Of a stretch of DNA of 64,000 bases, positions 1,510-4,509 are shown in pieces (position 1 is the stretch's first letter; each line of letters begins with the position of its first letter). Origin of the DNA: Conyzicola nivalis (GTDB taxonomy: Bacteria > Actinomycetota > Actinomycetes > Actinomycetales > Microbacteriaceae). The stretch covers positions 1,380,882-1,444,881 of the forward strand of contig NZ_BMGB01000001.1 in the NCBI RefSeq assembly GCF_014639655.1, given 5' to 3'. The notes under the pieces were generated by a model, which did not search any database, was not told the origin of the DNA, and saw only the letters and a program-made list of their open reading frames with translations. The position numbers were made by a program, and so were the translations under genes.

Positions 1510-1860
1510 TTAAGTGACGGCCGCGCCGGGGTCAGGCACATTCCAAATCTCAGAGTACCGATCACCGATGTCCGGCCGGTTCCAGATGTGTTGGAGCCCT
1601 TCGTCTACCGTTACCACTTTCGCGGCGAGGGGGAGGAAGACGACGAACTCGTGGACGATGATCCTTCCGGCGAGGTCCTTCCGACCCTGCGGGTCGGCGA
1701 ACCGTAGAGCGACCCTTCCTCCAACTTCAGCACATAGCTCGCGCTCATCGGCGACATGGGAGAACACCTCGTCGTAGATTGGGAGCGGATCAGCGTGACC
1801 TCCGTCGAGCAAGAATCGGTGTCCCCAGGTGCGCCCGCGGGTGGCCCAAATCAAGGTCAC
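1510..1860 (-). CDS. Hypothetical 116-aa partner of the islet GTPase
   Basis: The GTG start at 1860 overlaps the stop of the upstream GTPase in a GTGA junction, so the two are translationally coupled. The protein is compact, with no signal peptide or membrane helix. It opens with WATRGRTWGHRFLLDGG and later has a conserved-looking IIVHEFVVFLPLA strand. I do not recognise a named family. The strict coupling to a P-loop GTPase suggests a regulatory or accessory subunit of that GTPase. Codon use is less GC-biased than in the flanking core genes, in line with acquisition. Confidence 0.65.
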   Translation of the reverse strand: MTLIWATRGRTWGHRFLLDGGHADPLPIYDEVFSHVADERELCAEVGGRVALRFADPQGRKDLAGRIIVHEFVVFLPLAAKVVTVDEGLQHIWNRPDIGDRYSEIWNVPDPGAAVT

Positions 1861-3041
1861 TTTGGGCTCCGGAGGAATACCTTCTCTTTCTCGGCCATGT
1901 TCAGATCCATTTGGAACTTCGTCAACGTCGCTGCTAGATAGTCGCGTTTGGCGAGGGCGTCAGCGTTCATTTTCTTGAGCTGATCTTCAGCGAGATTCAC
2001 GGCGTTTTGCAACAGGCCGTCTGACAAAACGCGAACTAGAACGCCCTGCACCATTCCAAACGGGCCGGGTAATTTGACCTTGTTGATTATTGTTGCTGCC
2101 ATCTCTGCGGCTCCAACCATGCTTCCTGCGTGTCCGATGAGGGTCTCCATGACCTTGCCGCCGTTATGGATGGTTCTTGACCAAGCGATGTGGCGTTCGA
2201 ACGGCAACATGGCGGCCAATGGAAGAAGGAGTTCGACCCCAACTCGTTGGTTCAGCTCGATCCTGTCTTCCTCGAACTTCGCAGATGACAGCAGCAGGAA
2301 GTCCTCGCCGACGGACATTGCCTCGGGAACCTGTACGAACTCTCCCAGGACGGCTCGGAGCTCGTCGAGGTCTTCGGCGGCCTTCTCGATGAGGAGGTCC
2401 CGAAAGCCCGCCACGTCTAACTCCGGAAAAAGGTCTGACTTTGACAGTGCCAATACCCAGATGCGGGGGAATTTTGCGAGGGGCTTACCGTCGTGGAGCA
2501 GCCCAGTCTGCAGGGAATTCAGACCGTTGCTGTACATGTTGAAGAGAGCCTTAAGGTAGCGCTCTTCGTGTCCGGCGTTGTCCACGAGCCCCTGCCCGTC
2601 CACCAGCAGAACGGCGACATCAGACCCAAGGAGCGATCGGAAACCGTCGATTCTGCGCTGAGACTCCTCTTCCCCGGAGACGCTGCTGTCGAACCACTCC
2701 CCCGGATAGTCGTGCCAGACGAGTTTGAGCGCATCGAAGGGCTTGTTCCTCGTCGCCTTGGTATTAGCCCAGTTCTTCAGCTTGATGGAAAACGAGTACG
2801 CCGTGGCCTTGAAACGGTTGGCTTTCGGCGTGCGGGCGGCGTTCTTCATTTGTAGGTAGACCTGGTAAAGCCGGGTGCCTTGACCCGTGTCATCGGCCAC
2901 CACGTTGAACAGATGATTCTGCTTGTATTCCTCCTGCTGCGTGGCTCCGTAGAACGAAGACAGCAACACGGTCTTACCACTTCCGCTTCCACCAAACACG
3001 GCGATGTGCTGCTCACGAGTTCTGTTCCCTGACGTAGCCAT
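1857..3041 (-). CDS. TRAFAC-type P-loop GTPase of the AT-richer islet
   Basis: The P-loop GGSGSGKT is at residues 17-24, a G3 motif DYPG at 111-114 inside WHDYPGEWF, and a G4-like SKSD at 200-203 replaces the usual [NT]KxD. The DYPGEW pattern is shared with YcjX-like and 'double-GTPase' TRAFAC families, some of which sit in bacterial conflict systems. The C-terminal third has amphipathic/hydrophobic helices (about 300-350) that could contact membrane, then a charged helical tail. The second ATG (3041) is preferred over 3044 because it is 6 bases from GGGGAGG. The stop overlaps the start of the 116-aa partner. Function unknown; a defence or stress role is inference. Confidence 0.75.
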   Translation of the reverse strand: MATSGNRTREQHIAVFGGSGSGKTVLLSSFYGATQQEEYKQNHLFNVVADDTGQGTRLYQVYLQMKNAARTPKANRFKATAYSFSIKLKNWANTKATRNKPFDALKLVWHDYPGEWFDSSVSGEEESQRRIDGFRSLLGSDVAVLLVDGQGLVDNAGHEERYLKALFNMYSNGLNSLQTGLLHDGKPLAKFPRIWVLALSKSDLFPELDVAGFRDLLIEKAAEDLDELRAVLGEFVQVPEAMSVGEDFLLLSSAKFEEDRIELNQRVGVELLLPLAAMLPFERHIAWSRTIHNGGKVMETLIGHAGSMVGAAEMAATIINKVKLPGPFGMVQGVLVRVLSDGLLQNAVNLAEDQLKKMNADALAKRDYLAATLTKFQMDLNMAEKEKVFLRSPK

Positions 3042-3368
3042 CATTGACCTCCCCTTAGCTCTCGCAAGCTTGCCATAACGTGAGCAGCACTTAGGGCAGG
3101 GGGGGAGCTATTCAACGAATCGGCGAACGACAGCATGTTCTGGGTCGACCGCCCCAATCGGTCCAACGTGGTTACGACGAAGATGTCCCCCTTTATAAAG
3201 GGCGCTTATTGCACGTTCGAACTGCGGCCGCGAAACTCGAGCGCCGGAGACGCCAGCATCGATATACACATCGTCGCGACGAACACCCGCAGCCAGAAGA
3301 TCCGATTCTTGACGGTCGGTCCCCTGTTGACGAGTCGAGACCCGCGCGTATCCCACCGGCTTGCCCAT
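3041..3368 (-). pseudogene. Serine recombinase (DNA invertase) remnant, frameshifted and truncated
   Basis: The first 60 or so codons match the N-terminus of the resolvase/invertase family: VGYARVSTRQQGTDRQ with the catalytic Ser, then GVSGARVSRPQF. At a run of five C (3187-3191 on the + strand) the frame breaks; dropping one base restores DIFVVTTLDRLGRSTQNML, the normal continuation. After that the similarity ends and unrelated codons run to a TGA that overlaps the GTPase start (TGATG). The rest of the catalytic domain and the DNA-binding domain are missing. It is a scar of a mobile element at the islet boundary. The open frame upstream to 3446 is unlikely to be native. Confidence 0.8.
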
Positions 3369-3500
3369 CGACCCTCGCCCTGTCTCGCAACCGACTGTCA
3401 TTTCAGCTGTCCTCGCAGCTACTTGAAATACATAGATGCGAGACATGCCGCATCTAACAATCTCCTGGTGCGGCCGATGGGGAAGCGAGACGCCTCACAA

Positions 3501-3550
3501 CCCATGGGTTTCGATACGGTCGCGGAGCGACCTACTCAACCAGCCATGGG
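3501..3550. repeat. Dispersed Microbacteriaceae-type intergenic palindrome, copy 1
   Basis: The core GGTTTCGATACGGTCGC and GCGACCTACTCAACC arms face each other across GGA, with outer CCATGG-like arms. It overlaps the 3' end of the adjacent quinone oxidoreductase and supplies its last codons (LVE, stop). Related copies lie at 7871, 9058, 13716, 13814, 30161 and 35899. Confidence 0.8.
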
Positions 3551-4509
3551 GTCAGCACTACCTTGCCGACCCCACGCGACCGCATGCGCGCCACTGCCTC
3601 GGACGCACTGGATAGCGGGAGCGCGCCGTCGATCACCGGCATCATGCTGCCCGCTTGGACGAGCTCCGCGAGCGTCATCAAATCACCAGCCAAGGTCGCC
3701 GAGATCAGGCCCTTTAGCTTCTGCTTTGAGCCGATTGATCGCAGGGGTGCCGTCATCGCGCGACCGACGCCGCCGGTGAAGCGGCCGCCGGCCTCTCCCC
3801 CGACGATTACGAGGGTGCCTTCGGTCGCCAAAATGCGCCGCAAGTCCGCGAATGTGTGCGTGCTCGCCATGTCGATGATCAGGTCGTAGCGCAGCCCCGA
3901 CCGCGTGAAGTCAGTCGTCGTGTAGTCGATGACCTCGTCAGCGCCGAGCGAGCGCACCAGGTCGAGCTTCGCGGTGTTGGCGACACCCGTGACATGGGCG
4001 CCGAACGCCTTCGCGAGCTGGGTCGCGAAGATGCCGACACCGCCGGACGCTCCGATGATCAGCACCTTCTGCCCGGCCTGCACGTGACCGGTGTCACGAA
4101 GCGCGTGCAGAGCGGTGGCCGCAGAGGTGGGGATCGCCGAGGCCTGCTCGAACGAGAGCGAGGCCGGCTTCGGCGCGATCTTCTTGACCGAGGCGCGGGC
4201 GTACTCGGCGAGACCGGCATCGACGACGCCGAACACCTCATCGCCGGGCCTGAAGGCCGTGACACGAGAGCCGACGGAGTGCACCATCCCCGCGACATCC
4301 ATGCCCCTGATCCTTTGTCGGGGACCCTTGAATCCCACGAACGGACGCATGATCAGCGGCAGACCCGTCATGAGGTGGATGTCGCCGATGTTGAGCGAGG
4401 TGGCGCGCACCTCGATCAAAACGTCGTCGTCGCCGATCGTCGGCATGGGCACGTCGTCGAGGTGCAGCACAGACGAGTCGCCGTATCGGTCTTGCACTAT
4501 CGCTTTCAT
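3532..4509 (-). CDS. NAD(P)-dependent quinone oxidoreductase, zinc-independent MDR family
   Basis: The protein is 325 aa from ATG 4509. It has the MDR order: an N-terminal GroES-like fold (KAIVQDRYG, then GMDVAGMVHSVG) and a Rossmann fold with the nucleotide motif GASGGVGIFATQLAKAFGA. The Cys/His set of the structural-zinc loop is absent, as in QOR-like enzymes that reduce quinones or enals. It is the last gene of a three-gene unit (membrane protein, XRE regulator, QOR); its start overlaps the regulator stop (TGATG). The C-terminal LVE and stop are supplied by the dispersed intergenic repeat. Substrate unknown. Confidence 0.85.
   Translation of the reverse strand: MKAIVQDRYGDSSVLHLDDVPMPTIGDDDVLIEVRATSLNIGDIHLMTGLPLIMRPFVGFKGPRQRIRGMDVAGMVHSVGSRVTAFRPGDEVFGVVDAGLAEYARASVKKIAPKPASLSFEQASAIPTSAATALHALRDTGHVQAGQKVLIIGASGGVGIFATQLAKAFGAHVTGVANTAKLDLVRSLGADEVIDYTTTDFTRSGLRYDLIIDMASTHTFADLRRILATEGTLVIVGGEAGGRFTGGVGRAMTAPLRSIGSKQKLKGLISATLAGDLMTLAELVQAGSMMPVIDGALPLSSASEAVARMRSRGVGKVVLTPWLVE

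Follow-up and report, generated by a model that had tools for sequence, protein, structure and literature searches.

What is encoded by the AT-richer islet on the reverse strand of the Conyzicola nivalis window (the whole stretch of DNA analysed, 64,000 nucleotides), and does it represent, as an earlier note on this DNA proposed, a small defence or stress module acquired on a mobile element? Two genes, a GTPase gene and that of a smaller partner, occupy positions 1510-3044 and read as a single unit. The features concerned, all on the reverse strand, are as follows.

1510..1860, reverse strand: partner protein, 116 amino acids, longin-like strand/helix order, unnamed family (ORF, AF2 model)
1857..1860, reverse strand: GTGA stop/start overlap linking GTPase and partner (sequence)
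1857..3044, reverse strand: DO-GTPase2/YcjX-like GTPase, 395 amino acids (Pfam, homologues, AF2, Foldseek)
1867..1870, reverse strand: GGAG, ribosome-binding-site-like, for the partner, within the end of the GTPase gene (direct sequence reading)
3048..3052, reverse strand: GGAGG, ribosome-binding-site-like, for the GTPase (direct sequence reading)
3108..3446, reverse strand: broken serine recombinase (PF00239, plasmid DNA matches, frame analysis)
3433..3456, reverse strand: inverted repeat TAGATGCGGCATGTCTCGCATCTA directly upstream of the recombinase start (putative recombination site or terminator)

The GTGA coupling described in the earlier note is borne out by the sequence, the overlap comprising the GTG start of the partner and the TGA stop of the GTPase, with the GGAG element 6 nt upstream of that start. 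The base composition is likewise atypical with respect to the flanks, as had been claimed: the pair has 57.5% GC against 68.7% for the remaining window, and every other 1.5-kb segment has at least 61.8% (segment mean 68.8, sd 2.4). No RNA families were found within the islet.

The GTPase carries all of the motifs noted previously, i.e. P-loop GGSGSGKT, WHDYPGEW (containing DYPG) and SKSD, and across 77 homologues almost all residues of the P-loop, WHDYPGEW and SKxD are invariant, the Walker-B glutamate of WHDYPGEW being nearly so. It scores 34.9 bits against Pfam DO-GTPase2 (PF19993, cut-off 27), a model matched by 77/77 homologues (counted at E <= 0.01), in agreement with the suggested kinship to DYPGEW-type double-GTPases, and it lies under the cut-off for Pfam DO-GTPase1. 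In the AF2 model (pLDDT 83) a G domain (approximately residues 9-255) is followed by a helical C-terminal part (270-395), and Foldseek searches with this model retrieved YcjX as the best solved match (E 6e-6), followed by other Ras-like and dynamin-like GTPases. The protein, the single GTPase of this type in the C. nivalis genome, is a member of the DO-GTPase/YcjX clade. Its C-terminal part has two conserved helices separated by a variable, weakly hydrophobic segment (297-348) that is modelled with low confidence; here a mean hydropathy of 1.6 is reached in 14 of the 77 sequences, with no clear transmembrane helix, and action of the GTPase at the membrane is only a guess.

As YcjX is a stress protein, its standing as the best solved fold match is one argument for regarding the pair as an accessory to the envelope-stress response, in which a YcjX-like GTPase with a dedicated regulator aids membrane repair and the defence setting described below reflects a landing site for mobile DNA. 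Consistent with such a role, in Gammaproteobacteria proteins of the DO-GTPase family are found together with the phage-shock regulon (PMC11237479), and near and far neighbours of the pair are about equally rich in defence genes. However, the GTPase does not reach the YcjX (DUF463) family model (13 bits, cut-off 25), which gives weak matches in 6 of its 77 relatives, and unlike YcjX it is found at a rare, mobile locus and with a dedicated partner gene, a distribution that does not resemble that of a core stress gene. We consider such an accessory role improbable. The more specific possibility raised in the earlier note, that the GTPase is a housekeeping YcjX-type protein at a fixed core locus, was rejected, given the DUF463 score, the sporadic spread (8/250 family genomes) and the differing neighbours.

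The partner has no family in Pfam, NCBIfam or PADLOC, as the earlier note had anticipated, and within PHROGs it matches only phrog_38171, an uncharacterised family assembled from proteins of phages; no description of it was found in the literature searched. A genome-wide scan gave 123 stretches encoding partner relatives, the best 80 of which were analysed and are all cellular and all from Actinomycetota (~40 genera). In 80/80 of these best loci the partner gene is immediately preceded, on the same strand, by the GTPase gene, with an ATGA or GTGA stop/start overlap in 76/80; among the same best 80 of 123 no third gene recurs beside the pair, lineage-specific ones aside, and there is no recurrent effector gene. 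One such lineage-specific neighbour is a protein of 354-360 amino acids with no known family (MxHHxLEPEATGTVG...), encoded directly downstream of the partner in four Pseudoclavibacter genomes only. Fusion of the two genes was also considered and rejected, no case being present in these 80 (best of 123) loci, where the long frames are off-frame artefacts. Within the family, the 8 of 250 genomes that encode the partner include no other genome of the same genus, and the GTPase is adjacent in 7/7 of the other bearers, as it is in the one other positive genome of a phylum-wide sample of 296. Protein distances of GTPase and partner are correlated (r = 0.70 over 75 pairs; at most 0.26 in 2000 shuffles), a correlation also expected from simple co-transfer.

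The suggestion that the partner defines a family always following such GTPases is thus upheld for the cellular loci (80/80, best 80 of 123), where a conserved neighbour is present; "always" is too strong, as phages have the partner domain without a GTPase and some distant GTPases have no partner. Such more distant GTPase relatives, without an adjacent partner, differ in their P-loop (GTARSGKT in two of three read), and the pairing therefore marks one subclade.

An overlapping two-gene operon without a third component, sporadically spread and with copies on plasmids, could also be a toxin-antitoxin-like or addiction pair, in which a growth-inhibiting GTPase is kept inactive by the partner as a tight inhibitor and addiction maintains the pair on plasmids and islands, with no sensing of phage. 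The few phages that carry the partner domain alone would be expected if the partner neutralises the GTPase. Against this, the partner is the second gene, is highly conserved (mean pairwise identity 56%) and contains enzyme-like invariant polar residues, whereas classical antitoxins are usually more variable; we judge an addiction function unlikely.

DO-GTPase/GAP1 systems often contain two GTPase paralogues, GASH or FNIII, and an effector gene. The known DO-GTPase systems require GAP1 and further parts (Kaur et al. 2020, PMC7159879), and the GAP1 gene typically follows the DO-GTPase gene (PMC7159879). With the type 2 conflict systems the present pair shares the DO-GTPase2 match, the Walker-B glutamate (DYPGE) and the placement of a second gene, that of the partner, after the GTPase gene; it differs in having a single GTPase and a partner of one 116-residue domain, and in being without three-domain GAP1, GASH, FNIII, tubulin, HSP70 or an effector gene. 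The gene order common to both would also fit a partner that is a shrunken GAP1-N domain, the pair then being a pared-down version of the classical system, and by eye GAP1-N2 and the partner share an order of motifs (GFRF after strand 1, D-x-x-G-R) and a late invariant histidine preceding a beta strand. Attractive as it appears, this homology was not borne out by comparison with GAP1-N2: hhalign aligned 7 columns only, our own profile alignment was no better than with shuffled columns (p about 0.4), and Pfam GAP1 matched none of 86 partner-family members. A GAP1-N2 match is likewise absent from the C. nivalis genome, and GAP1-N1 was not found in 198 class genomes, leaving no sequences of that type for comparison with the partner. 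We regard descent from GAP1-N as rather doubtful. The pair is not a classical DO-GTPase/GAP1 system; since its GTPase belongs to the DO-GTPase/YcjX clade, but the searches for GAP1 were negative, we see it as a variant departing from the known systems.

The AF2 model of the partner is confident (pLDDT 92.8, pTM 0.86), with strands at 3-7, 15-18, 42-46, 49-55 and 69-74 and helices at 26-33, 85-93 and 96-105. The resulting order, b-b-a-b-b-b-a-a, is that of longin domains, which are regulators of GTPases. Foldseek searches of the PDB gave no significant match (best E 0.04, TM about 0.4), and about half of the top 50 matches were longin or roadblock domains, many of them in GTPase regulators (Npr2/Nprl2/3, FNIP2/FLCN, VAMP7, Sec22b, Ykt6, HBXIP, MglB) and GTPase-activating complexes, although numerous chains among them share a complex and so are not independent. 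The partner sequence matched none of the longin, roadblock or GAP1 families. Residues R8, R53, D56, P57, R60, D62, R66 and H70 are invariant or nearly so, and the conserved Arg, Asp and His residues fall in two hairpin loops of the model (about residues 7-15 and 53-70). In Npr2 a catalytic arginine is located in the N-lobe, the same lobe as the longin domain (PMC9646525), and the roadblock protein MglB is both GAP and GEF for MglA (PMC11016934). With MglA/MglB and Rag-Nprl2 the present pair would share the combination of a GTPase and a small longin/roadblock-like protein, as judged from the strand/helix order of the model; in contrast to them it shows no sequence kinship, no individually significant fold match, and a GTPase of another clade. 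Because of the Npr2 and MglB precedents and the conserved loop residues we favour, by analogy, a partner that acts as a longin-like regulator of the nucleotide state of the GTPase.

The earlier note placed a broken serine recombinase at the upstream border, and this is a genuine N-terminal piece of a Pfam Resolvase domain (PF00239, E 9e-13, profile 2-64 of 145), with a start at 3368 and a frameshift near 3190. Its DNA is 67-72% identical to plasmid recombinase genes of Citricoccus, Curtobacterium, Clavibacter and Kocuria, and this homology ends near 3120, leaving about 75 bp to the start of the GTPase gene. The near-perfect inverted repeat at 3433-3456 could be the recombination site of the recombinase. 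No convincing terminal repeats of a transposon were identified at the islet. In Paeniglutamicibacter a recombinase 70% identical to the window fragment lies directly downstream of the pair (L042 8911-9090), a likeness that suggests the same class of mobile element. Plasmid copies of the pair exist, and its GC content is under that of the far flank in 60/72 loci. With a mobile-element scar present and a locus that is not fixed, the acquisition proposed earlier is supported. A clean empty site was not found, both flanks being about 275 kb apart in the same-genus genome G111; there, the ortholog of the window dehydrogenase (about 3532-4470) adjoins, on the same side, a different islet of 55% GC that encodes a type II DNA methyltransferase and an 870-residue ATPase-like protein with weak REase_II matches (L136 7157-11130). 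The dehydrogenase-side spot is probably a hot spot for swapped defence cargo.

The earlier note had named recurrent pairing in defence islands as supporting evidence, and the neighbouring genes point to such a setting. The 137 immediate neighbours matched 105 PADLOC models as compared with 20 for 137 random actinobacterial genes (at 1e-10), the size of this enrichment being rough, as models rather than proteins were counted and gene calling was simple. Genes at 4.5-8 kb from the pair are similarly rich (110 models in 121 genes), and the signal is accordingly that of the island and not of the pair itself. Immediate neighbours include GmrSD, Mrr, SIR2-like, McrBC and NERD proteins, and on the Curtobacterium plasmid a type ISP restriction enzyme is encoded next to the pair and a SAVED protein close by. 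From this neighbourhood, the pair probably has a defence or stress function. At eight loci (L026, L029, L031, L055, L064, L065, L082, L102) an ADP-ribosylglycohydrolase-like gene occurs no more than about 8 kb from the pair, often accompanied by further recurring genes, Nudix- or SIR2-like by eye; this cluster may be a separate defence island.

Phages provide the second setting of the partner domain, which forms the C-terminal half of gp8 in Arthrobacter phages Nightmare and Tokki (phrog_38171; 36% identity, TM 0.85) and is also present in one protein from an IMG/VR contig (L010 5301-5912, L011 5270-5884 and L106 5689-6354). Unlike the cellular partner, gp8 is fused to a HYGVKGMKWG tag and a hydrophobic helix and has no accompanying GTPase gene; all of these phage proteins have such an N-terminal HYGVKGMKWG-like tag and hydrophobic stretch, and the gene follows a large gene, which is the terminase in both Arthrobacter phages, where gp8 lies between terminase and portal. 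In the head region of Nightmare several genes have a tag of this type, for which no literature was found. No relative of the GTPase was detected in 2.9 million viral contigs. The partner as a phage-wide gene was rejected, the single IMG/VR relative being without the GTPase, as was phage carriage of the pair in MT835574: in this record (MT835574.1 1-13409), labelled bacteriophage, the pair is accompanied by nadA/nadC and cysteine-desulfurase-like genes, and the sequence resembles a mislabelled piece of actinobacterial chromosome.

The phage copies, with their shared tag and their position in the head-gene region, where effector domains also occur, together with the invariant T/R/D/R/D/R/H set, could be taken to indicate that the partner is an enzyme and the real effector, activated by the GTPase and using the invariant Arg, Asp and His as its active site. 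Nevertheless, the model gives no significant enzyme match, and the residues sit in two hairpin loops with no recognisable pocket, making such an enzyme distinctly unlikely. A bolder and still less probable idea is that the pair forms a minimal two-protein GTPase immune switch, of which phages have copied the longin-like regulator, using it in tagged and membrane-anchored form as a decoy to silence the GTPase during infection.

Returning to the partner as a longin-like regulator, the mechanism that we favour, to which we would assign about an even chance, is a compact, mobile DO-GTPase switch for defence or stress, transferred horizontally among Actinomycetota, with the regulator setting the nucleotide state. 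The module would move between these bacteria and settle at defence-rich spots. Its first gene would supply the DO-GTPase2/YcjX-type switch, with its C-terminal helical part and variable, weakly hydrophobic segment, and the second, translated from the same mRNA via stop/start coupling, the small longin-like regulator that may bind it. An arginine finger or nucleotide-exchange lever would be expected in partner loops ~7-15 and ~53-70, and the regulator would most likely set the nucleotide state as GAP, GEF or lock. Infection or envelope stress would then free the switch, and the GTPase, probably acting at the membrane, would halt growth or infection.

For the cellular loci, these results describe an unnamed protein family whose members are strictly coupled to a conflict-type GTPase; with just two genes this is the simplest form, one in which binding and GAP or GEF activity are directly testable; the existence of phages with the regulator domain alone makes counter-defence testable also. 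If the longin-like fold holds, GTPase regulators of the type familiar from membrane systems in eukaryotes and archaea would be present in mobile bacterial defence islands. The pair is probably a so far undescribed compact stress or anti-phage switch.
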